64,000 nt of DNA from Campylobacter concisus (lineage in GTDB: Bacteria > Campylobacterota > Campylobacteria > Campylobacterales > Campylobacteraceae). The stretch lies in assembly GCF_002913045.1 (NCBI RefSeq), contig NZ_PPAF01000004.1, positions 171,465 through 235,464 on the forward strand, written 5' to 3'. The notes beneath the pieces are model-generated. The model worked only from the letters and a program-made list of their open reading frames with translations, was not told the DNA's origin and did no database searches. Made by a program: the position numbers and the translations under genes. Below, one piece after another: positions 424 to 21,555 of this stretch (the stretch's first letter is position 1; each line of letters begins with the position of its first letter).

Positions 424-516
424 ATTTGTAAAGATATTTTTTAGTCTTATTGCCTTAAATAATATTTTTATATAAACATATTATTTGTTAATTTGATATC
501 AATTTTTATACTTTGT

Positions 517-1152: not shown

Positions 1153-1161
1153 ATTTTATCC

Positions 1162-1935: not shown

Positions 1936-1936
1936 T

Positions 1937-2890
1937 TTATAGTCCTAAATTTGCAAGGTCGTGGATATGTAAAACACCCACAGGTACGCCATTTTCTACG
2001 ACGGCTAGAAGTTGAATTTTATACTTTTCTATCAAAGCTAACGCATCTACAGCTAACATCTCTTTGTTATCTATCTCTTTTGGTTTTAGGGTTGCAAATT
2101 TCATCGCTGGCTCGTCTAAGTCAAAGTCTTCTCGCATAAGTGCACGTCTAAGATCGCCGTCGCTTAAAATAGCATCTAACACACCATCTTTATCGACGAT
2201 TAGGACCGTGCCAAGTTTACCGTGTGTCATAGTATCGATTGCTTTTTTTAGGCTCGCATTCCAGCGAACTATCGGTAAATTTTCGCTTCTCATCACATCT
2301 TTGACCTTTAAAAATAGCCTCTTGCCAAGGCTGCCACCTGGATGAAAATTTGCAAAGTCCTCTTTTTTAAAACCTCGCCTTTGCATCAAACAAACAGCCA
2401 ATGCATCGCCAAGAGCTAACGTTAGTGTAGTTGATGCTGTTGGAGCGGCATTTAGTGGGCACGCCTCTTTTTCTACATCTATGCTAATAAATGCATCGCT
2501 AAATTTACCAAGCGAGCTTATTTTGCTCCTTGCCATTGCGACGATCTTTACACCAAAGCGCTTTACGTGAGGTAAAATTTTGATAAGCTCATCGCTTTCG
2601 CCACTAAAGCTAATGGCTAACAAAACATCATCTTTTTCTATCATGCCAAGGTCGCCATGCATAGCCTCTGTTGGGTGTAAGAAAAAGCTTGGCGTGCCGG
2701 TGCTCGCAAGCGTGGCAGCAATCTTTGCACCTACATGACCGCTCTTGCCTACGCCTGTTACTATGACCTTGCCTTTTGTATTAAATATCAAATTTACAGC
2801 ATCTTCTATCTCTAAGTTTTTAGCATGTCTTAAAAGCTCGTTTGCTTCTATCTTTAAAACTTCGGCTGCGATTTGGTTGATTGCTTGCAT
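1937..2890 (-). CDS. kdsD: Arabinose-5-phosphate isomerase, KpsF/GutQ family
   Basis: It interconverts ribulose-5-phosphate and arabinose-5-phosphate, the first step to Kdo for lipooligosaccharide. The SIS sugar-isomerase domain occupies about residues 25-170, with the signature GVGKSGHVGAKIAATLASTG and then HPTEAMHGDLGM. Two CBS repeats fill about 195-317. The 317-residue length is typical. It lies between rnj (9 bases upstream) and rluB (1 base downstream), so the three genes are probably co-transcribed. KdsD versus capsule-specific KpsF cannot be separated by sequence alone; no capsule genes are nearby, which favours the housekeeping role. Confidence 0.88.
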   Translation of the reverse strand: MQAINQIAAEVLKIEANELLRHAKNLEIEDAVNLIFNTKGKVIVTGVGKSGHVGAKIAATLASTGTPSFFLHPTEAMHGDLGMIEKDDVLLAISFSGESDELIKILPHVKRFGVKIVAMARSKISSLGKFSDAFISIDVEKEACPLNAAPTASTTLTLALGDALAVCLMQRRGFKKEDFANFHPGGSLGKRLFLKVKDVMRSENLPIVRWNASLKKAIDTMTHGKLGTVLIVDKDGVLDAILSDGDLRRALMREDFDLDEPAMKFATLKPKEIDNKEMLAVDALALIEKYKIQLLAVVENGVPVGVLHIHDLANLGL

Positions 2891-2899
2891 AAATTTCCC

Positions 2900-5029
2900 T
2901 TACATTAGATAGATAATTGGCACGATAGTTGGGTACTTTTTGACCTTTCTAAAGATATGCTTTCTAATCACTTGACGCACTTGTGACTCGAGCAGTCTGC
3001 CATCTTTTAAAAGCTCTTCTTTGACATTGCTTAAAAACTGCGTCAAAATTTCTTGCATCTCTTTGCTAAACTCCGCATCTTGTTTATTACCCACAAGGCC
3101 GTAGCTAATGACACGAGGCTTGTTTATAAGTTTTGCACCATGACGTGAAATTTGAGCGATTATCATGACGACACCTGCTTCGGCAAGATTTTGTCTGTCG
3201 ATGACGACATCATCTGAAATTTGTTTATTTATTTGATTGTCAATAAATACCTTGCCTGTTTTTACTGTTTTTACACGCTTTAGGTACTTTTGACAGATCT
3301 CCATTTGATCGCCATCGCTCATTAGATAGATGTTTCTCTCGTCTACGCCGCAGCTTATAGCTGTCTCTTTATGCTTTGCGATGTGATTGTATTCGCCGTG
3401 CACCGGCAGGAAGTATTTTGGTTTTATAAGACGAAGCATCAGCTTTTGCTCCTCTTGTGCTGCGTGGCCGCTCACGTGTATCTCGCTAAAGTCCTGGTAC
3501 GCGACGCTTGCACCTGATTTTATTAGGAAATTTAATACAGTTGAGATACTGCTTTCATTGCCAGGGATCGCCTTTGAGCTGATTATTATCTGATCGGTCG
3601 GTTTTATTTTGATGTATTTGTGTTCGTCGGTAGCCATTCGGTACAGCGCGCTCATAGTCTCACCCTGAGAGCCTGTGGTGACGATCAGAACCTCGTTATC
3701 TTTAAATTTGCCAACCTCGTTTGCATCGATAAAAATTTTCTTATCAAGCTTGATGTAGCCAAGCTCCATTGCAGTATATAAATTTCTCTCCATTGATCTA
3801 CCGATGACGCAGACTTTGCGGTTGTATTTTAGCCCCCACTCTATCGCTTGATAAACGCGGTGGATGTTTGAGCTAAACGTACTCATAATGACGCGACCTT
3901 TGGCCTTTGAAAATATCGCGTCAAAGGTCTTGCCCACGCTACTTTCGCTTTTAGTAAATCCTTCTCGGTAGCTATTCGTGCTATCGCTCATTAGGCACAA
4001 TACACCTCTTTCGCCGTAGTATGCAAGTCTGCCAAGGTCAGTTGGATAGCCGTCGATCGGCGTATGGTCGATCTTAAAGTCACCCGTATGGATGATGGTG
4101 CCCGCCTTTGTCGTGATGGCTAGCGCGCTAGCATCGATGATAGAGTGTGTGATGTGTATCCATTCAACCTCAAAGTCGCCTATTAGATATGGCTTTCTTT
4201 TTTCGACAGAGCGGAAAAGCGAGCGCTCTTGCTTTAAGCCGTGCTCTTCAAATTTATTATTTATCATACCAAGTGGTAGTGGCGTGGCGTAAATCGGAAA
4301 TTTAAACTCTTTGTAAAAATATGGCACTGCGCCGATGTGATCCTCGTGCGCGTGAGTGATGATGACGCCTTTTATCTTGTCTTTTATTTTTCTAACATAG
4401 TCAAAGTCTGGGATGAGGATATCCACGCCGTGCATACTCTCGCTCGGAAAACTCATGCCAATATCCACGATGATTGCGCTCGTGTCGGTTTCAAAGATAG
4501 TCATGTTTCCGCCGATCTCGCCAAGACCACCAAGTGGAGTTATGCGAATTTTATGTTCACTTGAGTTTAGATATTTCATCGGCTCCAGACGTAGCTCGTG
4601 AACGGCCTTGTTTGCCACCATTGCACTTGCGATATCTTGCTGCCATTGTTCATTGCCGTTTAGCTTAGCTGGTAAATTTTTCTTTGGCTTTTTAGCCTTT
4701 TTTGGCTTTTCTTTTTGTTCTTGTGTTTTGGTTTTTGTTTCTTGCGATTCTTGTTTTTGCTCTTTTGGCTTATTGTTTTCGCCATTTTTATTTTGATTTT
4801 TGTTATTTCTTGGCTTTTTTGGGCGAGAATTTTGGCTCTTTAGCTCGGCGTTCGTTTCAGTTTCAGCTTGCTCTGCTGCAAAGAAATTATCTATTACGCT
4901 TTTGCTTGCTAGTGAGGTTTGCTCGGTAGTTTCGCCCTCTTGTTTTGGCTTATTTTTTGGTCTAAATCTTCGTCTTTTGTTGTTTTTACTTTGGTTAGTT
5001 ACAACTTTCTCTTCGTTTTTGTCGTTCAT
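2900..5029 (-). CDS. rnj: Ribonuclease J with long basic N-terminal extension
   Basis: RNase J is the main 5'-3' exo/endoribonuclease for mRNA decay and rRNA maturation in Campylobacterota. The metallo-beta-lactamase/beta-CASP core begins near residue 155; the zinc motif HAHEDH is at residues 226-231, and a GSQGE motif marks the beta-CASP region. The first ~135 residues are a low-complexity Lys/Asn/Gln/Glu extension. A comparable extension in H. pylori RNase J binds the helicase RhpA, so a degradosome role is plausible here. The start overlaps the end of ksgA by 35 bases, suggesting translational coupling. Confidence 0.92.
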   Translation of the reverse strand: MNDKNEEKVVTNQSKNNKRRRFRPKNKPKQEGETTEQTSLASKSVIDNFFAAEQAETETNAELKSQNSRPKKPRNNKNQNKNGENNKPKEQKQESQETKTKTQEQKEKPKKAKKPKKNLPAKLNGNEQWQQDIASAMVANKAVHELRLEPMKYLNSSEHKIRITPLGGLGEIGGNMTIFETDTSAIIVDIGMSFPSESMHGVDILIPDFDYVRKIKDKIKGVIITHAHEDHIGAVPYFYKEFKFPIYATPLPLGMINNKFEEHGLKQERSLFRSVEKRKPYLIGDFEVEWIHITHSIIDASALAITTKAGTIIHTGDFKIDHTPIDGYPTDLGRLAYYGERGVLCLMSDSTNSYREGFTKSESSVGKTFDAIFSKAKGRVIMSTFSSNIHRVYQAIEWGLKYNRKVCVIGRSMERNLYTAMELGYIKLDKKIFIDANEVGKFKDNEVLIVTTGSQGETMSALYRMATDEHKYIKIKPTDQIIISSKAIPGNESSISTVLNFLIKSGASVAYQDFSEIHVSGHAAQEEQKLMLRLIKPKYFLPVHGEYNHIAKHKETAISCGVDERNIYLMSDGDQMEICQKYLKRVKTVKTGKVFIDNQINKQISDDVVIDRQNLAEAGVVMIIAQISRHGAKLINKPRVISYGLVGNKQDAEFSKEMQEILTQFLSNVKEELLKDGRLLESQVRQVIRKHIFRKVKKYPTIVPIIYLM

Positions 5030-5837
5030 TATCTTCCTTTAATCTTTCAAATACTTTTAGATAAAAATCGACATCTAGCTCGTGTGGACGTAAATTTTGA
5101 GCTAAGCCTAGGCTTTCAAAAATTTCTTCTAACGCATTTTTGTCAAAATTTGTGGATAAATTTTTCAAAAGCGTCTTTCTTGGCGAAGCAAACGCAGCTC
5201 TTAAAAATACTTTAAAAGCCTCGTATTGTTTTGCATCTTTGAAAATCCCGTCTTTGCCAAAAATCTTTTTTGTTTTTTGTAGTTTGATGACTGAGGATGT
5301 GACCTTTGGGGGTGGATTAAAAAGCCTTGCATCCACATCAAACAAAAGCTCGCACCTGCCTTGGAGTGAGGCAAGGATCGATAAAGCGCTAAATTCTTTA
5401 TCCTTACTCTTTGCACTAAATTTAAGAGCAACCTCTTTTTGTATCATCACGATAAGCCCAAGGCATTTTTCGTCATCTATCGCATTTAGTATCATCTTCG
5501 TAGCAACGTAATAAGGCAAATTTGCGACCAAAAAGTAGTTCTCGCTACTTAGTCCGCCCTCTTGCTGCCACTGCTCTAATGCATCTTTACAAAAAAGTTT
5601 TAATCGTCCATTTTGGATCTCATTTGCAAATTTGGCCTTTAAAATTTGAAATAGCTCACAATCTATCTCAAAACAGGTCGTCTTGTAAATTTGCAAAAGT
5701 CTAAATGTCAAATCACCTAAGCCAGGCCCAATCTCAACGACGTTTGCTACGTCATTGGGTATCGCTTGGATGATCTTATCTAGTGTCGCTTTGTCCTGTA
5801 AAAAATTCTGTCCAAAGTGCTTTTTTGCCTTTATCAT
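4995..5837 (-). CDS. rsmA (ksgA): 16S rRNA (adenine1518-N6/adenine1519-N6)-dimethyltransferase
   Basis: It dimethylates two adjacent adenines in the 3' hairpin of 16S rRNA during 30S maturation. The opening MIKAKKHFGQNFL is the usual family N-terminus, so I place the start at the ATG at 5837 rather than the in-frame TTG 18 bases upstream; neither has a strong ribosome-binding site. The SAM motif VEIGPGLGDLT lies near residue 36, and the adenine-binding NLPYYVATKM motif follows. Its 3' end overlaps rnj. The divergent helicase gene shares the 5' spacer. Confidence 0.9.
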   Translation of the reverse strand: MIKAKKHFGQNFLQDKATLDKIIQAIPNDVANVVEIGPGLGDLTFRLLQIYKTTCFEIDCELFQILKAKFANEIQNGRLKLFCKDALEQWQQEGGLSSENYFLVANLPYYVATKMILNAIDDEKCLGLIVMIQKEVALKFSAKSKDKEFSALSILASLQGRCELLFDVDARLFNPPPKVTSSVIKLQKTKKIFGKDGIFKDAKQYEAFKVFLRAAFASPRKTLLKNLSTNFDKNALEEIFESLGLAQNLRPHELDVDFYLKVFERLKEDNERQKRRESCN

Positions 5838-5907
5838 AGCCGCGATATTAGCCAAAAATTACTTATACAATGATTACAAGTTTAGTTTAATCATATATAA
5901 AATGGAT

Positions 5908-5913
5908 TATAAT
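5908..5913 (+). promoter_or_regulatory. Putative -10 box of the SF1 helicase gene
   Basis: TATAAT within GGATTATAATC lies 30 bases before the TTG start, in the divergent spacer. Campylobacter sigma-70 promoters typically have a good -10 and no clear -35, as here. Confidence 0.5.
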
Positions 5914-5943
5914 CACTAAATAATAACGAAATAGGGCATAAAT

Positions 5944-8900
5944 TTGAGCAAAGCAAATACCTTAAAATATTTTTTATTATCACAATATTTAGAGCCAAAA
6001 ACCTTAGATGAGCCAAAAAAGACAAATACGAAATTTAAAAAATCAATAGACCTTGACATCGCAAATTTCGATGAGAAGTTTATGCAAATTTTAAGAGCAT
6101 TTGATAGCTCACTTTTAAAAAATGGTATAGAAATTTCAATTTATGGCAGCATTTTTGAGACTGACTTGCTTGCCATTTATATCTCAAAGCTTGCAAATTC
6201 AAAATTTGAAAAAGAGCAAATTTTAGATGAGCTGCGATCTGAGCAAACAAGCTTTGATAAGGCGTTTTGCTATAAATTTAAGCTTACTGGTGATTTAGCA
6301 TTTTGTAAAGATGATCAAAATTTTGCTTTAAAAGATGTAAATTTAGATGATGATTTAACTCCATTTTTTACACCAAACTCATCTGATGATCTTTTTATCT
6401 CAACAGCTCCTTGGGCAATGGCTCGTCTAAATCATCTAAAGGAGATAAGCCAAAGTGATTTTAGCAAAGAGTGTGAGCGCATAAAAGACAAGCTATCTAT
6501 TTATAAAGAAAAAATGGAACTTGGTAAATATATAAAGCTTATAAACGATGAGCTAAAAAGTGCACTTAAAACACCATTTTGTAATGATTTCTTAAGGCTT
6601 GAAGTAAAGATCATAAATCCAAATTTTAAAGAAAATGATAGCCTTTTAAATAGCTTTTTTATAGATGATATAAATTTGCTTATAAAATTTTACGAGTCAG
6701 GTAGGACGCACGAGCTAACGGATCAGTTTTTGGACGAGGGCAGTGAGAATAAATTTGAAAGACTTGATGTAAGAGATGAGCAAAATAAAAGGCTTGTTAG
6801 AGATTTTTTTAAAGCAGAAGAGTATCCAAGATCGGCCTTTGCTAGTGACTTCGCTCTAAATTTCTCGCAGCAAATTGCCGTTAATAACATCATTAAAAAA
6901 TTTAAAGAAAAAAGTGGTGGAATTTATAGCGTAAATGGTGCTCCAGGCACTGGTAAAACAACGCTTTTAAAAGATGTAATGGCTGAAATTGTTACGCTTA
7001 GAGCGATGAAGCTCGCACAAATGAGTAGACATGATATCTTTGTTCCAGTTCGAGATAGTAGCGATAAGGTGCTTTATTTCACTCTAAATAAAGAACTTCA
7101 GGGCTATGAGATGGTTGTTAGCTCTTGTAATAACGGTGCGGTTGAAATTTTAAGTAAAGAGCTTAGTCAGCTAAAAAGTATCGGTAGTTACGCAGGCGAG
7201 ATTGATTATTTTAAATTTATAGCTACAAGGCTTCTCTCGGCCGATGAAAAGACAAATTTTGGAGAAAAATCTTTTGTCTCAAAACTTGCATGGGGACTTT
7301 TTTGCATACCTCTTGGCTCAAAGCAAAATAAGTCAAATTTTGTTTTTAACGCAATTAATGGCGTAAAGATCGAAAAAACGCATAGTCAGTTTGAAGACAT
7401 TTCAAAAGAATTTAAAGAATTTATAGAACAAGATGGCTTTTTGATGGGGCTTGGCAAGTATTTGGCTACTGGAGAAGGAGTTGATGATTACGACGAGGCA
7501 AAGGAGAAATTTAATCAAGCCCTACACGAAGTAAATCTACTTTTTAGTGAGATCAGGATCAAAGAAGAGGAGCTAAAAAGTATAAATAGTGAGCTTATAA
7601 ATATCGATAAAAGACTTGATAACTATAATTCAGCAAGGCAAATAGACGAGCTTTTAAGGCCACTAATAGATGAGCTAGATTTGAGTAAAAATGAGCTAGA
7701 GCAAAAGGTGGCTGAAGCCAACGAGCTAGCAAAGCTTATTGGCCAAAATGAAATTTTGCAAGAGTATCTAAGTACGCCTATAAAGCCATCATTTTTTATT
7801 TTCCAGCAAATTTTAAGGACGCAAGCTTTTGAAAAATATAACAATGAAGCACGAAAAGTTAGTGAGATAAATCGCCAAATAGCTGAGCAAAATTTGAAAG
7901 CAAGCAAACAAAATAGTGAAAACAAAGAGAAGAATGAAGCAAAATTAAACGAACTAAAAGCTCAAATAACTCAGCTTGAAGAGAAAATTTTAGAACTTAA
8001 CACCAAGATAGACCATCTCAACAAGCTTAATGATGACTTTGTTAGACGTCAAAAATTAATTGGCAGAAGCGAAGAGCTTGATAGCTTTTTAAATGGTAGT
8101 TTTAATCAGAGTAATGAAGAAATACAAAAGAGCATGCCATTTATGATGGAGCTTGGCCTTGATGAGAAATTTCATAAGACAAAGCTTTTTAACGCAAGAA
8201 TCAAGCTTTTTAAAGAAGCACTTAATCTGCATAAAGCCACTATCTTTGCTTGCAAAGAAGCTGTTAGAACAAATTTACGAGCTCTTAGTGTTATATTTAA
8301 TGATGAAAAAATGGCTGAGAAAAACGGGCTTGAGGCTAAAGATAGACGTGAAATAATAAAAGGATTATTTTTACTAACGCCAGTTGTTAGTTCTACTTTT
8401 GCATCTTTTAATAATAGCTTTAAAGAGCTACTAAATGGCGATATAGGCTTGCTCTTAATAGATGAGGCAGGGCAGGCAAATTTAACTAACGCATTAGGTG
8501 CACTGCTTCGTTCAAACATGGCTGTTGTAGTTGGCGATCCGCTTCAACTTGAGCCTGTTGTAACATTGCCACCGGCTTTAAATAATGCTATTTTACGCTA
8601 CTGTGATGCAAAGGATGAGTTTAATCTACTAAAATCATCAGTTCAACTTCGAGCCGATAAAGTACAAAATATTGGTACATATATAAAAGGAGAGGGTAAG
8701 TCCATTTGGGTTGGTTCGCCACTTATCGTTCATAGAAGGTGTGCCAATCCTATGTTTAAAATTTCAAATGAAACAACATATGATGATATGATGATACTTG
8801 GCAGAAACAGTGAAAGTAAACTTAGTGATCCTAATATCAAAACAGAATGGATTGATGTTAGTAGTGATGAATGGATAGGTAATTATAATAAAGCTGAAGG

Positions 8901-9228
8901 CATGATCGTTAAAGAGCTTTTAGATGGTAAGCTAGCCAAGCTAAAAGACAGTGTTAAAATAATAACACCTTTTAAAGATGTTTGTAAAAATTTAAAAGGG
9001 GCTGGTACCATTCACACCATGCAAGGCAAAGAAGCTGATGTTATTATCTTTGTCCTTGGCGGTGCTACAAAAGGTGCTAGAGCATGGGCTGCTAGTACGC
9101 CAAATTTACTAAATGTAGCACTAACAAGAGCAAAAGAGGTTGTTTATATAGTTGGCAACCGAGAAAATTGGTCTAATTTGCCATATTTTGAGGTAGCAGC
9201 TAGAAAAATAGATAAAGGACAGATTTGA
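5944..9228 (+). CDS. Large SF1 (UPF1-like) helicase/ATPase with coiled-coil insertion
   Basis: A 1094-residue protein with complete superfamily 1 helicase motifs: Walker [10 protein letters not shown] at 332-340, DEAGQA (motif II) at 840-845, GDPLQ (motif III) at 864-868, [10 protein letters not shown] (motif V-like) near 1024, and NVALTRAKE (motif VI) near 1057. Motifs I and II are about 500 residues apart; the gap includes a long Glu/Lys/Leu/Asn region (about 525-710) that reads as coiled coil. The N-terminal ~320 residues match nothing I recognise. The start is TTG and its end overlaps hisF by 4 bases. Function is open: RNA/DNA remodelling or a defence ATPase. Confidence 0.75.
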
Positions 9229-9980
9229 ATCATTTTGCAAAACGTATAATCCCATGCCTTGATGTAAAAGATGGTAGAGTTGTAAAAGGCGTAAATTTCG
9301 TAGGACTTGTCGATGCTGGAGATCCTGTCGAAATAGCTAAAAGATACAATGACGAGGGCGCTGATGAGCTTTGCTTTTTAGATATCACTGCCTCTCATCT
9401 TGGGCGTGATACGATAGTTGATGTCGTAAAAAAGGTCGCAAGTAAACTTTTTATCCCACTAACAGTTGGCGGAGGTATACGCACGATCGATGATATCTCA
9501 CGTCTTTTAAATGCTGGCTGCGATAAAGTAAGCTTAAATTCATCAGCCATACAAGATCCAAATTTGATTGATGAGGCAGCTAAGAAATTTGGCTCGCAAT
9601 GTATCGTAATTGCGATCGATGCCAAGAAGATCGAAAATGGTTATAGTGTTTTTATAAATGGTGGCAGGATCGATACCAAAAAAGATGCCTTTTCTTGGGC
9701 GAAAGAGGTCGAGTCGCGTGGAGCAGGGGAGATATTGCTAACGTCTATGGACAATGACGGCGTCAAACAGGGCTTTAATCTTGAGCTAACAAAGGTATTT
9801 AGCACGCTTTCCATACCAACTATCGCAAGTGGCGGCGCTGGTAAGATGGAGCACTTTAAAGAGGCTTTTGAAGCCGGGGCTGATGCGTGTTTAGCTGCTT
9901 CGATATTTCACTTTGGCGAGATCGAGATAAAAAAACTAAAAGAGTATCTCAAGACAAATGGTATTGAGGTTAGGCTCTGA
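9225..9980 (+). CDS. hisF: Imidazole glycerol phosphate synthase, cyclase subunit
   Basis: HisF joins the HisH-derived ammonia to PRFAR, giving IGP and AICAR in histidine synthesis. It is a complete (beta/alpha)8 barrel of 251 residues. Catalytic aspartates are visible in [12 protein letters not shown] near the N-terminus and AIDAKK mid-protein; phosphate-binding GGGIRT and SGGAG loops are present. The TTG start overlaps the helicase stop (TTGA), and the stop overlaps the next ATG by 1 base. No other his gene is in the window, so hisF is separated from its pathway partners. Confidence 0.93.
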
Positions 9981-10660
9981 TGTTAGTTATCTCTGCTGGA
10001 AAAAATGAAATTTTTGACTTTGCTTTGCCAATGGGTGTGGGGCTAGTTGATATGGCGATAAATTTGACAAAATTTTTGCAGAAACGAGCATGTATTGGAG
10101 CGGATGAAAAGGGTATAAATTTAAAAAATATCGATCCGCACTATCTTGCAAAGATTGAAGCTAAATTTGCAAACTCATCAAATCCAGAGCTACAAAATCT
10201 AATCCAAAATTTGTCAAAAAATCCTGAACGAAATTTGTATCAGATGCCAGAAAAAATAGTTTTCGTTGGCTCGGCAGGTCTTTATAAAGACGGTGAAATT
10301 TTACAAATTTATGAAAGTTCGGTTGGGGCAAATATAGAAATTTCTAGCGTAGAAAATAGATCTTATTCACCGATTGAGTGTGAAATTTCTTCTATAGTTT
10401 CACGTGGAACTATCAAAGCAAATTCGTCAAATTTTATAACGACTGATAAAAATTTGGCTCATAAGATATTTGAAAAAGGCTATTTTTTAGAAAATATGGA
10501 GTTTTTTTCTGTTCTAAAAGTAGCTCAAATTTTTAAAATTCCAGCTTATGGAATTTTTGTAGCGACAAATTTTTGTGATAAAAATGCACATGCTGATTTT
10601 ATAAAAAATCACGCAGAGGCCAAGAAAATTCTAACAAAATATATAAAGGAAAATATGTGA
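9980..10660 (+). CDS. Nucleoside phosphorylase/nucleosidase-like protein
   Basis: A 226-residue soluble protein. [14 protein letters not shown] resembles the base-binding glycine loop of PNP/MTA-nucleosidase folds, and [13 protein letters not shown] resembles their ribose-binding M-E motif, followed by [14 protein letters not shown] where these enzymes have a conserved Ser/Asp-containing strand. The N-terminal third is poorly conserved. The substrate cannot be assigned. It is coupled to hisF (1-base overlap) and rlmN (GTGA overlap), giving one unit helicase-hisF-this gene-rlmN. The fold call is from motif likeness only. Confidence 0.5.
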
Positions 10661-11793
10661 TAAATTTGCTTGATCTTAGTATTGATGAGCTAAAAGAGTT
10701 AGTTTCTCCACCATTTAGAGCAACACAAATCTACGAGTGGATATATAAAAAAAATGCAACCGAATTTAGCCAAATGCTAAATTTACCTAAAGATATGCGT
10801 CAAGATCTGGCTGAAAAATTTTATATCGATCCTTTAAAATGTGTAAAATTTGAGCAAAGTAGTGATGGTTCGATCAAGTATCTTTTTGAGCTAAAAGATG
10901 GGCTAAAGATAGAGAGTGTTTTGCTGCCGATGAAAGAGGAGATAAGTGATGAGAATGGAAAGATCAGTCGCCATGCTCGTTATACAGTTTGTGTTAGTTC
11001 ACAGGTTGGCTGTAAAATGGGATGTGCTTTTTGTCTAACAGCAAAGGGTGGGCTTGTTAGAAATTTGACTGCAGGCGAGATTGTGGGGCAAATTTTATGG
11101 ATAAAAAGAGAAAATAAAATACCTTATGAAAGACGTATAAATGTCGTTTATATGGGTATGGGTGAGCCACTCGATAATCTTACTAACGTTAGTAAAGCGA
11201 TCAAAATTTTAGCTCTTAACGAGGGTCTAGCCATATCGCCACGTCGTCAAACCGTTTCAACTAGTGGCCTTGGCAGCCAGATAAAAAAGCTTGGTGAGAT
11301 GGATCTTGGTGTGTTATTGGCCATATCGCTTCATGCTGTTACTAATGAGCTTAGAAGCCGTCTAATGCCGATAAATAAGGCGTATAATATCGAAGCTGTT
11401 ATGGATGCTGTTAGGGGATTTCCTATCGATATGCGCAAACGCGTGATGTTTGAATACCTTGTTATCAAGGACCTAAATGACAGCGTTAGTGATGCAAAAA
11501 AGCTGGTAAAACTGCTGCATGGTATCAAGGCAAAGGTAAATTTGATCTATTTTAACCCGCATGAAGGTAGTGAATTTGGACGACCTGAGCTTACCAGCAT
11601 GCTAAAATTTCAAGAATATCTAAGAGATCACGGTGTTACTTGCACGATCAGACAGAGCAAAGGACTTGATATAAGTGCAGCTTGCGGGCAATTAAAACAA
11701 CGCAATGAAAATGCAAAATTTAAAGCTATTTCCAGCGATAAAAATTTAAAAACACATTCACTTGAAGATAATAGTAAAGCCAGTGTGAGTTAG
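10657..11793 (+). CDS. rlmN: 23S rRNA (adenine2503-C2)/tRNA methyltransferase RlmN
   Basis: A radical-SAM methyltransferase that methylates C2 of A2503 in 23S rRNA and A37 of some tRNAs. The 4Fe-4S motif CX3CX2C appears as CKMGCAFC near residue 120. The second catalytic cysteine is in SAACGQL near the C-terminus, which distinguishes RlmN/Cfr chemistry. The start is GTG in a GTGA overlap with the preceding gene. The 378-residue length includes a short non-conserved polar tail after the AACGQL region. The small membrane peptide gene follows after 1 base. Confidence 0.92.
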
Positions 11794-11794
11794 A

Positions 11795-11905
11795 ATGAGT
11801 GCACTTGATATAGCCGAAATAGTCTTTGTTGCTGTTGTGGTTTTACTTGGATTAGGGCTTATTTTAAAAGTTTTAAAAGATGAAAACGATAGGCATAAAT
11901 TCTAA
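11795..11905 (+). CDS. 36-residue single-TM small protein
   Basis: The ATG is 1 base after the rlmN stop, and the frame ends at TAA 11903-11905. The peptide begins MSALDIAEIVFVA, has one continuous hydrophobic helix (about residues 8-27), and ends with a charged tail (KDENDRHKF). This is the pattern of a real small membrane protein. A very small gene (Cj1714) follows rlmN in C. jejuni as I recall, which would support it. The ribosome-binding site would lie inside the rlmN end, implying translational coupling. Function unknown. Confidence 0.6.
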   Translation: MSALDIAEIVFVAVVVLLGLGLILKVLKDENDRHKF

Positions 11906-12064
11906 GCCTTAACATCAAGATAAAATCTAACCCTCATAAAGAAATAAAATGGAGTATTAATTGCATAAACTATAAAATTGTCATTGTGGTATTTAAAAGC
12001 GATAAACTTTGGCAAAATGTAGGTAAAGGTTTATGAGAAATAGAAATTTATTAAAAAATTTAGA

Positions 12065-12979
12065 CTAAAGTAAGCTCTCTTTTGCAAATCTGTAAAACTC
12101 GTTTTCAGCGTCAAATTTGCTTTTTATGTTATAAAAAATTTCATCAAATTTAAAAGAAATTTCATCTGAGTGGAGCAAGAGTCTTTTTGCTCCAGTTAAA
12201 TTTATCCGTTCACGCTCGCTCATCTCTTTATCTAAAATTTTCTCGATCTGCGGACGTGACAAACCATAAAGTGGTTCGCCAAGTATCTTGTGTTTCACAT
12301 GAAACAAATGTAAGCGAATTTGATGCTGTCTACCAGTGAGTGGGATAGCCCGAAGTAAAGTCGTATCAATATCATCAAAATATCTGATCGGCAAAATTTT
12401 AGTCACAGCACTCTTACCGTTCTCACAAATTTGCATTCGCATTTTCACATCGTCGTAGTTGTTTGCTAGATCCATCTTGGTATCGATAGTAAATTCTCGC
12501 TCTATCTTACCTTGCACCATCGCGACGTAGCTTTTAGAAACCTCTCTGTTTTCAAAAATTTTCTTTAATTTAATAGTAGAATTTCTATCTTTTCCAACGA
12601 CTATCACGCCACTCGTCTCAAAGTCCAGCCTATGTGCCACGCTCGCTTCTCGCCCAAAAAGCGTATAAATTTCATCATTTAGCGAGTATTCGCAGTGTCT
12701 GCCGTTTGGATGACTCAGCACGCCACTTGGCTTGTCAAAAACTGCAAAATTCTCGCATTCAAAGATCGGCTTAAGCCCCTTTGGCTCTGCCTCATAGTCG
12801 ATCAAAAAGACGTCGCCACATAAAATAGCATTTTTTTCGCTCACGACATTGCCGCCACATATCAGCCTGCCCTTGTCAATGAGGCGCTGAGTTTGACTCA
12901 TAGTAAAGCCATTTTGCAGTAAAATTTCATAGGATTTTTGCTGATTTGCTGTGGCAATAAATTTATTTACATATGGCAA
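12065..12979 (-). CDS. RluA/RluD-family RNA pseudouridine synthase
   Basis: A 304-residue pseudouridine synthase with an S4-like N-terminal segment (about 15-65) and the RluA-family catalytic signature HRLDFETSGVIVV, containing the catalytic Asp, followed by LTGRQHQIRLHL near residue 217. The TTG start has AAAGGAT 7 bases upstream. It is divergent from purB, the same arrangement I recall for Cj0022c/purB/nrdA in C. jejuni. The RNA target (23S or tRNA) cannot be assigned. Confidence 0.85.
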   Translation of the reverse strand: MPYVNKFIATANQQKSYEILLQNGFTMSQTQRLIDKGRLICGGNVVSEKNAILCGDVFLIDYEAEPKGLKPIFECENFAVFDKPSGVLSHPNGRHCEYSLNDEIYTLFGREASVAHRLDFETSGVIVVGKDRNSTIKLKKIFENREVSKSYVAMVQGKIEREFTIDTKMDLANNYDDVKMRMQICENGKSAVTKILPIRYFDDIDTTLLRAIPLTGRQHQIRLHLFHVKHKILGEPLYGLSRPQIEKILDKEMSERERINLTGAKRLLLHSDEISFKFDEIFYNIKSKFDAENEFYRFAKESLL

Positions 12980-13058
12980 AAATAATCCTTTTGAAAAAAA
13001 TGAGCTTTATTAAGCACAAATTTATAAGTATATAACCGACATTTCAGCCCGGATTTTA

Positions 13059-13064
13059 TATAAT
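13059..13064 (+). promoter_or_regulatory. Putative -10 box of purB
   Basis: TATAAT in TTTTATATAATC about 100 bases before the purB ATG; a long leader of roughly 95 bases would result. Confidence 0.4.
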
Positions 13065-13164
13065 CAAAACTTAAATTTAGAGAAATTGCACGACGTGATT
13101 TCTGGCTTAAAAAGCCAAATTTATACTTTTAGGACAAAAGCAAACTAATACAAAAGGTTCAACA

Positions 13165-14496
13165 ATGGTCGAAAGATACTCGCGTAAAGAGATGGCTGAT
13201 AAGTGGAGCATGCAAGCAAAGTATGATGCTTGGCTCAAGGTAGAAAAAGCTGCTGTTAAAGCTTGGAATAAGCTTGGCTTCATAAGCGACAGCGACTGTG
13301 AGAAAATTTGCAAAAACGCTAAATTTGAAGTGGCTCGTATCGATGAGATAGAAAAGACAACAAAGCACGACGTCATCGCGTTTTTAACAAGCGTAAGCGA
13401 GAGCCTTGGCGAGGAGAGTAGGTTCGTGCACTACGGCATGACCTCAAGCGACTGCATCGACACAGCCGTCGCACTTCAGATGAAAGAGAGCCTAGAGCTC
13501 ATTATTAGCGACGTTGAGGAGTTCATGAAGGCGGTCAAAAACAGGGCAAACGAGCACAAGCACACGCTCATGGTCGGCAGAAGTCACGGCATCCACGGCG
13601 AGCCGATAACTTTTGGCCTTGTGCTTGCCATCTGGTACGACGAGATTGCAAGGGCGCTAAAGCTCATCAAAGATGCAAAAGATACGATCAGTTACGGCAA
13701 GCTCTCAGGTGCTATGGGAAATTTAGCCCACGCTCCGATGGAATTTGAAGAGCTAACATGCGAGGAGCTAGGTCTTAAAGCTGCCCCAGCGTCAAATCAA
13801 GTGATCCAGCGCGACCGCTATGCCCATGTGGTAAGCGCCATCGCAGTTCTAGCCTCTACTTGTGAGAAGATCGCAGTTGCCATTAGGCACTACCAAAGGA
13901 CCGAGGTTTATGAGGCAGAGGAGTATTTTAGCCCAGGACAAAAGGGCTCAAGCGCTATGCCACACAAGCGCAATCCAGTCCTTAGCGAAAACATCACCGG
14001 CCTTTGCAGGGTGCTACGCTCATACGTTACGCCTGCACTTGAAAACGTCGCCCTTTGGCACGAGCGCGATATCAGCCACAGCTCGGTTGAGAGATTTATC
14101 CTGCCAGATATGTTTATCACGGCTGATTTTATGCTGGTTCGCATCAAAAATTTGATAGCAAATTTAGTCGTATATCCAGAAAATATGATGAAAAATTTAA
14201 ATTTAACAGGTGGACTAGTCTTTTCACAGCGCGTACTTTTACAACTGCCGCAGCGCGGAATTTCTAGAGAGGACGCCTATAAGATCGTTCAGCGTAACGC
14301 AATGAAGGTCTGGGCGGACTTGCAAGAGGGCAAAAAAGCGATCGATGAGCAAGGTCACAGCCTATTTTTGCAAAATTTGCTAAACGACGAGGACCTAATT
14401 AAGAGCCTTAGTAAAGATGAGATCAAAGAGTGCTTTGACTACAACTACTACACCAAAAATGTAGATAGAATTTTTGCCAGAGTCTTTGGCAAGTAA
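13165..14496 (+). CDS. purB: Adenylosuccinate lyase
   Basis: PurB removes fumarate from SAICAR and from adenylosuccinate in purine synthesis. The fumarase/aspartase-superfamily signature GSSAMPHKRNP lies at about residues 261-271, with the flexible catalytic serine loop. Further conserved blocks are TSSDCIDTA near 93 and GRSHGIHGEP near 137. Length is 443 residues, normal for the short bacterial type. A strong hairpin terminator follows, so it is probably transcribed separately from nrdA. Confidence 0.94.
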   Translation: MVERYSRKEMADKWSMQAKYDAWLKVEKAAVKAWNKLGFISDSDCEKICKNAKFEVARIDEIEKTTKHDVIAFLTSVSESLGEESRFVHYGMTSSDCIDTAVALQMKESLELIISDVEEFMKAVKNRANEHKHTLMVGRSHGIHGEPITFGLVLAIWYDEIARALKLIKDAKDTISYGKLSGAMGNLAHAPMEFEELTCEELGLKAAPASNQVIQRDRYAHVVSAIAVLASTCEKIAVAIRHYQRTEVYEAEEYFSPGQKGSSAMPHKRNPVLSENITGLCRVLRSYVTPALENVALWHERDISHSSVERFILPDMFITADFMLVRIKNLIANLVVYPENMMKNLNLTGGLVFSQRVLLQLPQRGISREDAYKIVQRNAMKVWADLQEGKKAIDEQGHSLFLQNLLNDEDLIKSLSKDEIKECFDYNYYTKNVDRIFARVFGK

Positions 14497-14716: not shown

Positions 14717-17092
14717 TTGAAAGTTATAAAACGTAATGGCAGAACCGAAGAGCTTGATATAAGTAAGATCAAAAAATACACAAACGAAGCAGTCCTTGGA
14801 CTAAGCAATGTAAGTCTTAGCGAGCTTGAAGTGGACGCAAAAATCCAGTTTAGAGATATGATAACGACTGAGGAAATTCAGCAAACTCTTATAAAAACAG
14901 CAGTTGATAAGATAGACATCGACCGCCCAAACTGGACATTTGTCGCTGCGAGACTATTTTTGTTCGACCTTTATCACAAAGTATCTGGCTTTAACGGCTA
15001 CAATCACCTAAAAGACTACCTAGTAAAAGGTGAAAAAGTAGGCCGTATCATCCCTGGACTAAAAGAGAAGTACGATCTTGAGGATCTAAACGCTTACATC
15101 AAGCCTGAGCGTGACCTTCAGTTTGCATACCTTGGTATCAAGACGCTTTATGATCGCTACCTCATCAAAGATAAGAGCGGCATGCCGATCGAACTGCCAC
15201 AGCACATGTTTATGGCGATCGCGATGTTTCTAGCGCAAAACGAGCTAGATAGTCAAGGTTGGGCTAAGAAATTTTACGACCTCATCTCTAAATTTGAAGT
15301 GATGTTAGCCACGCCAACGCTCTCAAACGCAAGGACTACACGTCACCAGCTAAGTAGCTGTTACGTAGGCAGTACGCCTGATAATATTGAGGGCATTTTT
15401 GATAGCTACAAAGAGATGGCGCTACTTTCAAAATTTGGTGGCGGTATCGGCTGGGACTGGAGCAAGGTGCGTGCGATGGGTGGCAGTATCGACGGACACA
15501 AAAACGCAGCTGGCGGTATCATACCATTTTTAAAAGTGACAAACGACATCGCAGTAGCGGTCGATCAGCTAGGCACTAGAAAGGGTGCGATCGCTGTTTA
15601 TATCGAGCCTTGGCATATGGACGTGAGCGATTTTCTCGATCTTCGTAAAAACTCAGGCGAGGAGAGACGCCGTGCACACGAGCTTTTTCCTGCACTTTGG
15701 ATAAACGACCTATTTATGAAGCGTGTCAAAGAAAATGGCCGCTGGAGCCTCTTTGATCCAGCTCAAGTAAGCGACCTTTGCGACCTTTATGGTGAGGAGT
15801 TTGAGAAGAGATATTTAGAGTATGAAAATGACGAAAATATCCAGAAAAACACCATCCTAGCAAAAGAGCTTTGGAAGAAAATTTTAACTAGCTATTTTGA
15901 AACGGGCATGCCATTTTTATGCTTTAAAGATAACGCCAACAAAACAAATCCAAATAACCACGAGGGTATCATCAGAAGCTCAAATTTATGCACCGAAATT
16001 TTCCAAAACACAGCGCCAAACTACTATAAGATCAAGATCACTTATGAAGACGGTGGCGAGGAGCTATTTGACGAAGAAGAAGACGTCACGGTCGATAGTG
16101 GCATAACTAAAAAAGCCAAAAAGCTTAGCGCGCTTGATAGCCTAAAAGGCAAGCAAATTTTCATCGTAGAAAAAGAGAGTATCGAAGGCAAAACGGCAGT
16201 TTGCAACCTTGCAAGTATAAATTTAAGCAAGATAAACAGCAAAGAGGACATCGAGCGTGTCGTGCCGATAGCTATTAGAATGCTTGATAACGTTATAGAT
16301 CTAAATTTCTACCCGCACAAAAAGGTAAAACACACAAACCTAGCTTCTCGCTCGATCGGCCTTGGCGTCATGGGTGAGGCGCAAATGCTAGCTGAGAAAA
16401 ACGTAAAATGGGGCAGCTATGAGCACTTGGCGCTCATTGACAGCATAATGGAAAACATAAGCTACAACGCCATCTACGCTAGCTCAAATTTAGCCGTAGA
16501 AAAGGGTATATATCCAAAATTTGAAGGCTCAAAATGGAGCAAAGGTATCATGCCGATAGACACTGCAAATGAGAATGCAAAGGCACTTTTAAACGACAAA
16601 GGCGGGCTATTTGACGAAAATGTCTGCGACTGGGACAAGCTAAGAGAGAAGGTCAAGCGTGACGGCATGAGAAACGGCTACCTAATGGCGATCGCTCCAA
16701 CTAGCTCGATCTCGATCCTTGTTGGCACCACTCAGACCATCGAGCCAGTCTATAAACGCAAGTGGTTTGAGCACAACCTAAGCGGCATGATCCCAAATGT
16801 CGTGCCAAATTTAAGCCCTGATACTTGGCAGTTTTACACGCCAGCTTATGAGCTTGATCAGAGAATTTTAATAAAAGCAGGTGCGATCCGCCAAAAATGG
16901 ATCGACCAAGGTCAAAGCTTAAATATCTTTATGAGCTTAGACAAAGCAAGCGGCGGATATCTAAGTGAAATTTACACGCTTGCATGGGAGCTCGGACTAA
17001 AATCAACCTACTATCTACGCTCTGAGTCACCAGATAGCGAAAAGCTAAACGACGTGGCTGACCGCTCGATCGAATGCGAAGGATGTCAGTAA
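14717..17092 (+). CDS. nrdA: Ribonucleoside-diphosphate reductase alpha subunit (class I)
   Basis: The large catalytic subunit of aerobic ribonucleotide reductase; it reduces NDPs using a radical delivered by NrdB. The N-terminal ATP-cone (about 1-90) carries the allosteric site. The active-site region includes SSCYVGSTPDNIEG (near 212) and NLCTEI, and the C-terminal redox pair is CEGC at the extreme end. Length 791 residues. The start is TTG with GGAGAG upstream. Its partner nrdB lies about 31 kb away on the opposite strand, so the two are not an operon here. Confidence 0.93.
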   Translation: MKVIKRNGRTEELDISKIKKYTNEAVLGLSNVSLSELEVDAKIQFRDMITTEEIQQTLIKTAVDKIDIDRPNWTFVAARLFLFDLYHKVSGFNGYNHLKDYLVKGEKVGRIIPGLKEKYDLEDLNAYIKPERDLQFAYLGIKTLYDRYLIKDKSGMPIELPQHMFMAIAMFLAQNELDSQGWAKKFYDLISKFEVMLATPTLSNARTTRHQLSSCYVGSTPDNIEGIFDSYKEMALLSKFGGGIGWDWSKVRAMGGSIDGHKNAAGGIIPFLKVTNDIAVAVDQLGTRKGAIAVYIEPWHMDVSDFLDLRKNSGEERRRAHELFPALWINDLFMKRVKENGRWSLFDPAQVSDLCDLYGEEFEKRYLEYENDENIQKNTILAKELWKKILTSYFETGMPFLCFKDNANKTNPNNHEGIIRSSNLCTEIFQNTAPNYYKIKITYEDGGEELFDEEEDVTVDSGITKKAKKLSALDSLKGKQIFIVEKESIEGKTAVCNLASINLSKINSKEDIERVVPIAIRMLDNVIDLNFYPHKKVKHTNLASRSIGLGVMGEAQMLAEKNVKWGSYEHLALIDSIMENISYNAIYASSNLAVEKGIYPKFEGSKWSKGIMPIDTANENAKALLNDKGGLFDENVCDWDKLREKVKRDGMRNGYLMAIAPTSSISILVGTTQTIEPVYKRKWFEHNLSGMIPNVVPNLSPDTWQFYTPAYELDQRILIKAGAIRQKWIDQGQSLNIFMSLDKASGGYLSEIYTLAWELGLKSTYYLRSESPDSEKLNDVADRSIECEGCQ

Positions 17093-18513: not shown

Positions 18514-20616
18514 ATGCGTGAGATTTTGAAGAGAGATGGCACAAGACAAGAATTTGTAGCATATAAGATAGTAGATGCGATAAAAAAAGCATTTGCTAGC
18601 GAAAATCTAGCTTATGATGAGAAAGTTTTTACAAATGTTGTCCAAGATATCTTTCAAAAATCAAGCGCGATAACAGTCGAAGACATCCAAGATGCGATCG
18701 AAAAAGAGCTATTTAATAGCGGATATTTCGACGTTTTAAAGAGCTTTATGCTCTACCGTCATACCCACAAGCTTCAACGTGAGCAAATTTTAGGCCTAAA
18801 TGACGATACGACTTACATAAATTCAACTCAAACGATAAATGAGTATATAAATGGCACCGACTGGAGAATTTCTGCAAACTCAAACACAAGCTACTCAAAT
18901 GCAGGACTTATCAACAATACTGCTGGCAAAGTCATCGCAAACTACTGGCTAGACGCTGTTTATAGCAAAGAAGAAGGTCTTGCTCATAGAAATGGCGACT
19001 ACCACATCCATGACCTTGACTGCCTTACAGGGTACTGCGCTGGCTGGAGTTTGCGAGCCTTGCTAAATGAGGGCTTTAACGGCGTTCGTGGTAGAGTTGA
19101 GAGTAAAGCACCAAAACACTTTAGAGAAGCACTTTATCAAATGGCAAATTTCTTAGGAATTTTACAAAGTGAATGGGCTGGTGCTCAGGCGTTTTCTAGC
19201 TTTGATACCTACCTTGCGCCTTATGTTTTTAAAGATGATCTAAGTGACGCTGAGATCAAAAAGGCGATAACTAGCTTTATTTTCAACCTAAATGTGCCTG
19301 CACGCTGGGGACAAAGTCCATTTACAAACGTAACCATAGACATCACTTGCCCAAGCGACCTAAGAGATCAGATCCCAACGAGCGATGATATACACCTCTT
19401 TACAAACGTAAAAGATGAAAAAATTTTGAAAAAAGCAAACGAGCGTGGCAGAAAAAATTTGATCGATATGACCTACAAGGACTTCGAGCCTGAAATGGCA
19501 CGCATAGATAAGGCATTTTACGAGGTTTTAACAGCTGGCGATAAGTGCTCGCAGCCTTTCACATTTCCTATACCAACGGTAAATATCACAGAGGATTTTG
19601 ACTGGGATAGTGAAGTAGCGGATGTACTCTTTGAAAATACTGCCAAAATGGGCTCAAGCTACTTTCAAAATTTTATCGGCTCACAATACACTTATGACGA
19701 AAATGGCAATAAGATAGAAAACGAAAAAGCCTACAAACCAGGACATGTTCGCTCTATGTGCTGCCGTTTGCAACTTGATCTAAGAGAGCTTTTAAAACGA
19801 GGTGGTGGTCTTTTTGGTAGTGCTGAGATGACAGGCTCAATCGGCGTCGTCACTATAAATTTAGCTCGCCTAGGATACAACTTCAAAGGCGATAAAGTCG
19901 CACTTTATAACAGGCTAAGTTATCTTTTGGAGCTTGCTAAATCGACACTTGAAAAAAAGCGCAAATTTATACAAGAGATGTATGACAGAGGGCTTTATCC
20001 TTATACGGCTAGATATCTAAAGCACTTTAATAACCACTTTAGCACGATTGGCATAAATGGCATGAACGAGCTTCTTAGAAATTTCACAAATGATAAAGAG
20101 AATATCTCAACAAAATTTGGACGAGATTTTGCTATTGAGATGGTTGAGTTTTTGCGCGATAAGATAAGGACATTTCAAGAAGAAACTGGAAATTTATATA
20201 ACCTTGAGGCGACTCCAGCTGAGGGCACAACATACCGCTTTGCCAAAGAGGATAAAAAGCGCTATCCAGACATCATCCAAGCAGGTGGCGGGGAGAATAT
20301 TTACTACACAAACTCAACTCAGCTTCCAGCAAATTTTACAGATGATGCTTACGAGGCGCTTGATTTACAAGATGATCTTCAGACTTCATACACTGGTGGC
20401 ACAGTATTTCACCTTTATATGAAAGAAAGGATCAGCTCACCTAAAGCTTGCAAGGAGCTTGTAAAGAGCATAATCTCAAATTATAAGCTTCCATATATCA
20501 CGATAACGCCTGTGTTTAGCGTTTGTTCAAAGCATGGATACATTGCTGGAGAGCATGAATTTTGTCCGCTTTGTGATGCAGAATTAATAGAAAAAGAGAA
20601 AAACAATTCCAAATAA
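18514..20616 (+). CDS. nrdD: Anaerobic ribonucleoside-triphosphate reductase, main chain lacking the glycyl-radical segment
   Basis: The catalytic chain of class III ribonucleotide reductase, 700 residues. An ATP-cone occupies about 1-90 (REILKRDGTRQEF). The ten-stranded barrel carries family blocks such as GDYHIHDLDC and FTNVTIDITCP. The C-terminus has the zinc-site segment CSKHGYIAGEHEFCPLC and then stops at TAA 20614-20616 before the expected R-V-x-G-Y glycyl-radical motif. That motif is in the next ORF, in the same frame, after one stop codon and a new SD/ATG. The enzyme therefore appears to need the small protein in trans. Confidence 0.9.
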   Translation: MREILKRDGTRQEFVAYKIVDAIKKAFASENLAYDEKVFTNVVQDIFQKSSAITVEDIQDAIEKELFNSGYFDVLKSFMLYRHTHKLQREQILGLNDDTTYINSTQTINEYINGTDWRISANSNTSYSNAGLINNTAGKVIANYWLDAVYSKEEGLAHRNGDYHIHDLDCLTGYCAGWSLRALLNEGFNGVRGRVESKAPKHFREALYQMANFLGILQSEWAGAQAFSSFDTYLAPYVFKDDLSDAEIKKAITSFIFNLNVPARWGQSPFTNVTIDITCPSDLRDQIPTSDDIHLFTNVKDEKILKKANERGRKNLIDMTYKDFEPEMARIDKAFYEVLTAGDKCSQPFTFPIPTVNITEDFDWDSEVADVLFENTAKMGSSYFQNFIGSQYTYDENGNKIENEKAYKPGHVRSMCCRLQLDLRELLKRGGGLFGSAEMTGSIGVVTINLARLGYNFKGDKVALYNRLSYLLELAKSTLEKKRKFIQEMYDRGLYPYTARYLKHFNNHFSTIGINGMNELLRNFTNDKENISTKFGRDFAIEMVEFLRDKIRTFQEETGNLYNLEATPAEGTTYRFAKEDKKRYPDIIQAGGGENIYYTNSTQLPANFTDDAYEALDLQDDLQTSYTGGTVFHLYMKERISSPKACKELVKSIISNYKLPYITITPVFSVCSKHGYIAGEHEFCPLCDAELIEKEKNNSK

Positions 20617-20625
20617 GGAGAGGAA

Positions 20626-20796
20626 ATGACAGAAAAAGAAATTTTGGAAAAAGTACAAGACAAACGCACAAAATGCGTAGTCTATACTCGTGTTATGGGT
20701 TATCATCGCCCAGTTGAGAGCTTTAACCTTGGTAAAAAAGGTGAGCATAAAGAGCGTATTAAATTTGACGAATACGCGAGTTGCTGCAAAAGATAA
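20626..20796 (+). CDS. Stand-alone glycyl-radical segment of class III ribonucleotide reductase
   Basis: A 56-residue ORF, in frame with nrdD and 9 bases beyond its stop, with its own strong ribosome-binding site (AAGGAG at 20615-20620, overlapping the nrdD stop, 5 bases before ATG). The segment KCVVYTRVMGYHRPVESFN matches the glycyl-radical C-terminus of NrdD proteins; the radical glycine should be Gly25. Cys17 precedes it and a Cys-Cys pair lies near the end. In usual NrdD this follows the zinc CxxC domain in one chain. Because start and SD are well formed, it looks like a functional split rather than a fresh nonsense mutation. Confidence 0.8.
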   Translation: MTEKEILEKVQDKRTKCVVYTRVMGYHRPVESFNLGKKGEHKERIKFDEYASCCKR

Positions 20797-20832: not shown

Positions 20833-20858
20833 AAAAGGCACAATCTTCTGTGCCTTTT
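20833..20858 (+). terminator. Rho-independent terminator after nrdD
   Basis: Stem AAAAGGCACA / TGTGCCTTTT with a 6-base loop, 36 bases after the small nrdD ORF. It would also separate nrdD from nrdG unless read-through occurs. Confidence 0.75.
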
Positions 20859-20880: not shown

Positions 20881-21555
20881 TTGCATAAAGTCTTTAGTAT
20901 AACGCCATTTACTACGCTTGATTATCCAGACAAAGTGGCTGCGGTAGTTTGGTTTGCAGGCTGTAATATGCGATGCGTGTATTGCTACAATATAGAAGTT
21001 GTAAATTCAAATGGCAATATAGAAATGGATGAGGTTTGTAACTTTTTAGACCGCCGTATAGGTAAGCTAAATGGCATCGTCTTTAGCGGTGGCGAATGCA
21101 CGGCAAATCCTTTATTTTTAAAACTTGCAAGAGAGGTTAAGTCAAGAAATTTTTGCCTAAAGGTCGATACAAATGGCTCTCATATTGAGATTTTAAAAGA
21201 GGCGATAGGCGAGGGACTGATTGATTATATCGCACTTGATTTTAAAGCGCCAAAAGAGAAATTTACGGGCATAACTGGCTCAAATTTATATGAAAAATTT
21301 ATTAGCACACTAAAATATCTGCTTGAGATAAATTTTGATTTTGAAGTAAGAACAACCGTGCATGCAGATTTTTTAGATGAAACAGATATTTCTTTGATGT
21401 CTGAAATTCTTTATGACCTTGGATATAGAGGCAATTATTATTTGCAAAAATTCCTTAGCACAGGTGAAAATTTTGGAAATTTAGTTGATGCTAAAAGTAG
21501 CTTTGATCCGAAAAAAATCATCTCAAAACTTCCTATTAAACTAAGAAATTTTTAA
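20881..21555 (+). CDS. nrdG: Anaerobic ribonucleotide reductase activase (radical SAM)
   Basis: NrdG uses SAM and a 4Fe-4S cluster to generate the glycyl radical on NrdD. The cluster motif CX3CX2C is visible as GCNMRCVYC at about residues 26-34, followed by a GIVFSGGECT motif typical of activases. Length is 224 residues. The start is TTG (20881), overlapping the tail of the terminator region; the preceding GGTCCATAAAT offers only a weak ribosome-binding site. Its presumed substrate here is the separate 56-residue glycyl-radical protein. Confidence 0.88.
   Translation: MHKVFSITPFTTLDYPDKVAAVVWFAGCNMRCVYCYNIEVVNSNGNIEMDEVCNFLDRRIGKLNGIVFSGGECTANPLFLKLAREVKSRNFCLKVDTNGSHIEILKEAIGEGLIDYIALDFKAPKEKFTGITGSNLYEKFISTLKYLLEINFDFEVRTTVHADFLDETDISLMSEILYDLGYRGNYYLQKFLSTGENFGNLVDAKSSFDPKKIISKLPIKLRNF

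Follow-up and report, generated by a model that had tools for sequence, protein, structure and literature searches.

A two-gene class III ribonucleotide reductase in Campylobacter concisus with a predicted stand-alone glycyl-radical subunit and relatives of that subunit in viral DNA

The stretch analyzed here, called the window, is 64,000 nucleotides of Campylobacter concisus DNA (contig NZ_PPAF01000004.1, positions 171,465 to 235,464). The class III ribonucleotide reductase encoded in the window is very probably the product of two genes, one for a 700-residue barrel protein, NrdD, and one for a separate 56-residue subunit that carries the radical glycine and is likely charged by the activase NrdG. 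This view is drawn from sequence comparison. The features of the locus are as follows:

18514..20616, + strand: nrdD, catalytic subunit, 700 residues; ATP-cone at residues 4-86, NRDD barrel and zinc motif at residues 122-689
20614..20625, + strand: stop/Shine-Dalgarno junction; the TAA (20614-20616) overlaps AAGGAG (20615-20620), with a 5-nucleotide spacer before the ATG
20626..20796, + strand: predicted stand-alone glycyl-radical subunit, 56 residues, motif RVMGY; Gly25 is the codon at 20698-20700
20833..20858, + strand: stem-loop between the small gene and nrdG; fold z-score -3.2
20881..21555, + strand: NrdG2-type radical S-adenosylmethionine (radical-SAM) activase, TIGR02495, 224 residues, TTG start as listed

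No glycyl-radical motif was found in the 700-residue large open reading frame (ORF), either in the sequence or with Pfam; its C-terminus is EHEFCPLCDAELIEKEKNNSK-TAA, 13 residues past the zinc motif CPLC. The small ORF lies in the same frame, with 9 nucleotides from the stop to its ATG at 20626. An earlier reading made from the sequence alone had described this layout, with nrdD ending after CPLC and RVMGY on a 56-residue ORF behind the TAA, AAGGAG and ATG, and both the sequence and Pfam agree with it. In Pfam, the large ORF covers positions 2-529 of the 562 in PF13597 (NRDD; E 2.2e-161) plus an ATP-cone and the small ORF covers positions 531-562, so the two jointly span the family nearly without overlap. 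The ORF at 20881-21555, 84 nucleotides downstream of the small ORF, scored 176 bits against TIGR02495 (NrdG2), which has a cut-off of 131. The locus therefore has the NRDD catalytic domain and the NrdG activase of a class III enzyme and lacks a C-terminal glycyl-radical motif in the same chain; since that motif is on a separate ORF, this is a split variant and not a standard NrdD. The window's own genome has one copy each of the large and small genes.

The small ORF has the marks of an independent gene. It starts with an ATG preceded by a Shine-Dalgarno sequence of 4-7 nucleotides in 44 of 45 loci, the other being unreadable. Its frame is that of nrdD in 25 of 41 loci and another in 16; among the 27 loci closest to the window, the frame is shared in 24 and differs in three. 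Of the TAA, Shine-Dalgarno and ATG arrangement whose conservation was to be checked in relatives, the start signals are conserved and the common frame is not. In nine loci, nrdD and the small gene overlap by 4 nucleotides. The ratio of nonsynonymous to synonymous polymorphism (pN/pS) was 0.047 for the small ORF (24 distinct alleles, taken from the 27 loci closest to the window). This value, together with presence in nearly the whole genus, suggests that the small ORF is more than chance.

Within the genus, the small ORF was found in 47 of 48 genomes; the best match lay in a frame of at most 84 residues in 46 of them and in a 648-residue frame in one (G042). The search of these 48 genomes did not find it in G044. 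In the order, it was found in 198 of 398 genomes (44 of 87 genera), in frames of 48-105 residues in all rows among the matches listed. The large protein was matched in 46 of the 48 genus genomes and 220 of the 398 order genomes, although 15 of these 220 matches were weak (E > 1e-20), 11 of them from one sister genus. Its relatives were 694-709 residues long (120 listed of 7998). The 5045 short-protein matches were not used as a count because they include pieces cut at contig ends. Among the matches listed, both genes occurred in 145 genomes, lying within 5 kb on one strand in 136 (including the fused G042) and unlinked in nine. In one unlinked genome, G041, 94 kb separate nrdD from the small gene; in all three unlinked genomes inspected (G041, G039 and G045), the small gene is followed by nrdG. 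The incomplete cases were genes at a contig end (G367, G417, G376, G245), a partial match containing a stop (G404) and two incomplete genomes with the small gene only (G043, G271). The two-gene form prevails in the order. It is seen in the 46 genus genomes with short frames and not in some fused relatives, among them G042 within the genus. The refuting condition named in the sequence-only reading, that relatives encode one continuous chain and the stop is unique to this strain, came out negative. In some order members, a conserved ORF of about 160 residues lies between nrdD and the small gene (L082:4310-4792, L083:3423-3905, L085:3582-4085), which we take to resemble NifU/IscU-type scaffold proteins.

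The split is also found in other phyla. The set of genome contigs analyzed was the best 80 of more than 580, ranked by likeness to the split form and thus a biased set that does not give a rate; it contained 75 split pairs, four small genes without a nearby large gene and one unclear case. These contigs were named mostly as Pseudomonadota, plus a few Elusimicrobia and Verrucomicrobia drafts. For three of the four lone small genes, the large gene was located elsewhere in the genome; a search of the fourth genome did not find it. Three loci missed by the motif pattern (L254, L255, L289) were assigned by reading, and a "fused" label for L196 (Massilia sp. H-1) was set aside, the large gene being in pieces in that assembly. 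A fairer sample for frequency is an even set of 299 Pseudomonadota genomes, 13 of which matched, 10 in frames of 61-275 residues and three in frames of 613-735 residues. RefSeq annotates the pair as two coding sequences in Sulfuricurvum and Bradyrhizobium plasmids, Cupriavidus metallidurans (CH34) has two ORFs in different frames, and Acidiphilium has the fused form. In two Betaproteobacteria drafts (L141, L142), nrdD and the small gene are apart, and the ORFs of 529 and 632 residues near the small gene share the C-terminus ..IDSSVFHL.L.

With the radical domain removed, 114 barrels (102 split and 12 fused) were placed in a quick maximum-likelihood tree. The split/fused label changed at least five times on it, with four changes forced by well-supported branches, and three fused lineages (five rows) were nested in the window's 37-row clade. 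These changes and nested lineages suggest from sequence that the split is old and that refusion has probably occurred. The root of the tree is not fixed, and either the split or the fused form may have come first.

Copies of the small gene also occur apart from nrdD. Among the matches listed, 11 genomes had extra copies, and the contexts were inspected in eight (all but G022, G040 and G243). The surroundings were phage-like for two copies in G041, two in G039 and one each in G023, G024, G025 and G362; the extra copy in G196 belongs to a second nrdD-small gene-nrdG locus, and the one in G215 had no clear context. In G041, the prophage copies are identical to the host copy at 94% of 35 core residues, compared to 83-88% at the DNA level. 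Viral contigs were scanned twice, giving 34 and 197 relatives, of which the 34 and the best 80 of the 197 were analyzed. These 114 loci represent 111 contigs because of duplicates (L110/L281, L119/L278, L122/L295). Among the first 34 whole viral records, PF13597 detected the radical domain only in 32; G440 had no match to the family, yet its small gene was found by tblastn, and G434 is considered below. All 50 further whole records, from the 77 remaining, had the radical domain only. The NrdD core was therefore not found with PF13597 in 83 of 84 whole viral records, none of which was rated at least 90% complete. The activase family was matched in two of 50 viral records, above the cut-off in G434 and below it in the 183-kb G443. 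Downstream of the small gene, a radical-SAM motif is present in all 45 order loci and in 70 of 79 readable genome-contig loci, compared to one of 108 readable viral loci.

The viral copies appear to be kept under selection. The radical glycine was present in all 108 of the 111 viral contigs that could be anchored without using the glycine (L251, L271 and L272 were not anchored). Although the glycine was part of one pattern of the second scan and one of six of the first, all 81 sites fitting the glycine-free pattern of the second scan have it. For 23 pairs of viral copies, pN/pS was 0.13; in the neighbor and selection analysis, four loci were not caught and two were set aside as too short. A Shine-Dalgarno sequence of at least 4 nucleotides precedes a start in 24 of the 34 loci of the first set. 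Twenty neighbor proteins, picked as representatives of recurring groups or as single cases, were compared with PHROGs: 12 matched families with a named phage function (including holin, endolysin, terminase, portal, minor head, tail, integrase and primase), one matched "lipoprotein", five matched only families of unknown function and two matched none. Six stand-alone domains, of which five are viral, were also compared, and each matched phrog_4132, a family listed with "unknown function", at about positions 110-157 of 179.

The window's small protein had no match among cultured phages. A viral small copy matched two cultured-virus records, ANMV-1 virus and a phage with a fused NrdD. The ANMV-1 record (KP703175.1, L296:2180-2614) holds a 144-residue stand-alone protein that contains CPKC and YSRIVGYLRP and is annotated as anaerobic ribonucleoside triphosphate reductase; it is another type of free radical domain, one that includes a zinc motif, in an archaeal virus record. 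Some viral copies have a longer N-terminal part (L125:5776-6138, L127:5809-6114, L128:5836-6120, L129:1540-2037) with the common stretch ..SWGL..IVDCDPI..VTF.DG.VRQA.. before the radical motif. This extension could be a partner-capture or targeting domain. Beside some viral-type copies, in a group of four loci, lies an ORF (L086:96-2683, L249:2129-3280) that presumably resembles the reverse transcriptase of diversity-generating retroelements.

In fused NrdD, the radical loop inside the barrel hands the radical to an active-site cysteine. When the read-through chain was folded, with an artificial linker and with 23 fused relatives among 122 alignment rows, the glycine was placed as in T4 NrdD, and the fold matched NrdD of phage T4, Thermotoga maritima and Prevotella copri. 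The 56-residue protein would likely dock in the barrel with its radical loop inside. NrdG would take the hydrogen from Gly25 of the small protein, either free or bound to the barrel, and the radical would pass from Gly25 to the active-site cysteine of the barrel, as from the fused domain. The radical domain of P. copri NrdD (residues 676-739 of its chain) is described as expected to move as a rigid body and as disordered with dATP (PMC11226230), and this mobility makes a non-covalent version plausible. Oxygen is reported to cleave NrdD at the glycyl radical (PMC12288474). As the cut falls at the radical glycine, a loose subunit would be cheaply replaceable: a fresh 56-residue protein could restore the damaged enzyme and spare a new 700-residue chain. 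This exchange is less certain than the two-gene make-up, as is the idea that the viral small gene is a spare part, by which phages carrying it alone would let the host NrdD and NrdG keep supplying deoxynucleotides during infection. The wider proposal is that an exchangeable radical subunit of about 50-60 residues is widespread and replaced after oxygen damage, and that in phages of many hosts this subunit, probably phrog_4132, is carried alone to take over and sustain anaerobic DNA-precursor synthesis of the host. We put it forward tentatively, at slightly less than even odds. It would give a function to a viral family listed without one and suggests a way for oxygen-exposed bacteria to cope with an oxygen-cleaved enzyme.

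The barrel, ATP-cone, zinc motif, glycyl-radical motif and NrdG are common to this system and the NrdD enzymes of T4, T. maritima and P. copri, which differ in having the radical domain in one chain. Class III ribonucleotide reductase is described with the radical glycine in the enzyme chain (PMC9669993, PMC9531940, PMC4390871). A full-text literature search, with supplements and most subscription papers outside it, found no class III enzyme with the radical domain on a separate protein. One large phylogeny dropped sequences shorter than 400 residues (PMC9531940), which would hide a small subunit. Among the closest parallels are GrcA/YfiD and the phage-encoded T4 Y06I, which are likewise small free-standing glycyl-radical proteins; they are of the pyruvate formate-lyase type and repair an enzyme that has its own radical domain, whereas the partner here has none. 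YfiD and Y06I are named as the only validated spare parts, with the provision that others may exist (PMC8683613), and the finding here is a conserved natural split in a DNA-precursor enzyme. The small protein matched only NRDD/NrdD models (E up to 0.001) and no homology to the pyruvate formate-lyase radical domain was found. It is by these matches not a member of the GrcA/YfiD family, but by analogy it may work like GrcA, a likeness already proposed from the sequence alone and strengthened by the unlinked small genes, the extra copies and the orphan viral copies. NrdJa/NrdJb is also a ribonucleotide reductase in two chains (PMC9669993), but of class II, whereas the large ORF here is NRDD, class III; no class II (B12) barrel was found in it, as class II models match only at the ATP-cone (residues 2-100). 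Phage nrdD genes in pieces are known as well, with six cases in one survey, but these are described as whole genes broken by inteins, endonuclease inserts or unexplained breaks (PMC3653736), whereas the viral records here have the radical domain only.

One alternative to a two-gene enzyme is that read-through or recoding of the stop gives one continuous NrdD and the start of the small ORF is not used. The shared frame and the short distance to the ATG in this strain, and the shared frame in 24 of 27 close relatives, would suit this. However, the other frame in three of those relatives and in 16 of 41 loci overall, the ATG and Shine-Dalgarno sequence in 44 of 45 loci and the unlinked genes in nine genomes make it very improbable. 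That the stop is a recent nonsense mutation or a sequencing error, or that this strain carries a pseudogene, is hardly credible; nothing was found in favor of this, and the split is conserved in the genus and order, found in other phyla and under purifying selection. Nonsense mutation, pseudogene and read-through were therefore rejected as the conserved state on the grounds of conservation, unlinked copies, frames and pN/pS. The suggestion from the sequence alone that this is an evolved two-piece enzyme holds up, since the split prevails in the order, occurs in other phyla and has the low pN/pS given above.

A more serious alternative, which we consider quite possible while leaning against it, is a stable two-chain enzyme in which the radical domain was cut off by a neutral change and the small chain, once bound, is not exchanged; the viral copies would then only raise dosage. 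The closeness of the genes on one strand in 136 of 145 genomes fits this, the 4-nucleotide overlaps suggest coupled translation and the several refusions suggest that a single chain costs little. On the other hand, the unlinked genes in nine of the 145 genomes, the extra copies in 11 genomes and the large number of orphan viral copies, which are under selection, are more readily accounted for by free subunits that can enter the enzyme. Another possible explanation for the viral copies is that they are decoys or regulators that block or retune host deoxynucleotide synthesis through the barrel or the activase. Viral records hold the domain without the core and nearly all without the activase, and some copies are N-terminally extended, but a blocker would not need the radical glycine that all anchored contigs keep. 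A decoy role is thus unlikely.

Several points weigh against two genes with an exchangeable subunit. The translation of the 56-residue product and its binding to the barrel are inferred from the sequence, and the artificial linker and fused relatives favored docking in the predicted fold. Because the large protein, unlike the partner of GrcA, lacks a radical domain, the small one would be an obligate component of the enzyme and not only a spare part. G042 has a fused 628-residue NrdD without an ATP-cone, 100% identical to a protein from Campylobacter sp. 19-13652, and G059, G229 and G424 in the order have fused NrdDs of other subfamilies; fused forms in the genus and order indicate that the split is not required for function. 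In G366 (L301), the large gene and nrdG overlap, and a search of this draft genome did not find the small gene; either a contig is missing or this genome uses another source of the radical subunit. Among the first 34 viral records, G434 (L101) has the core, the small gene and the activase on a 6.8-kb contig, which may be of bacterial origin. Viral records are possibly fragments, and a missing core is thus not proof that the virus has none.

The stem-loop at 20833-20858 is listed as terminator-like on the - strand only. It is a possible terminator or processing site and might have a role in setting the ratio of radical subunit to activase. Upstream of nrdD, at a distance of 1.4 kb that includes ORFs of 120 and 243 residues, a 791-residue ORF (14717-17092) presumably resembles the alpha subunit of class I ribonucleotide reductase.
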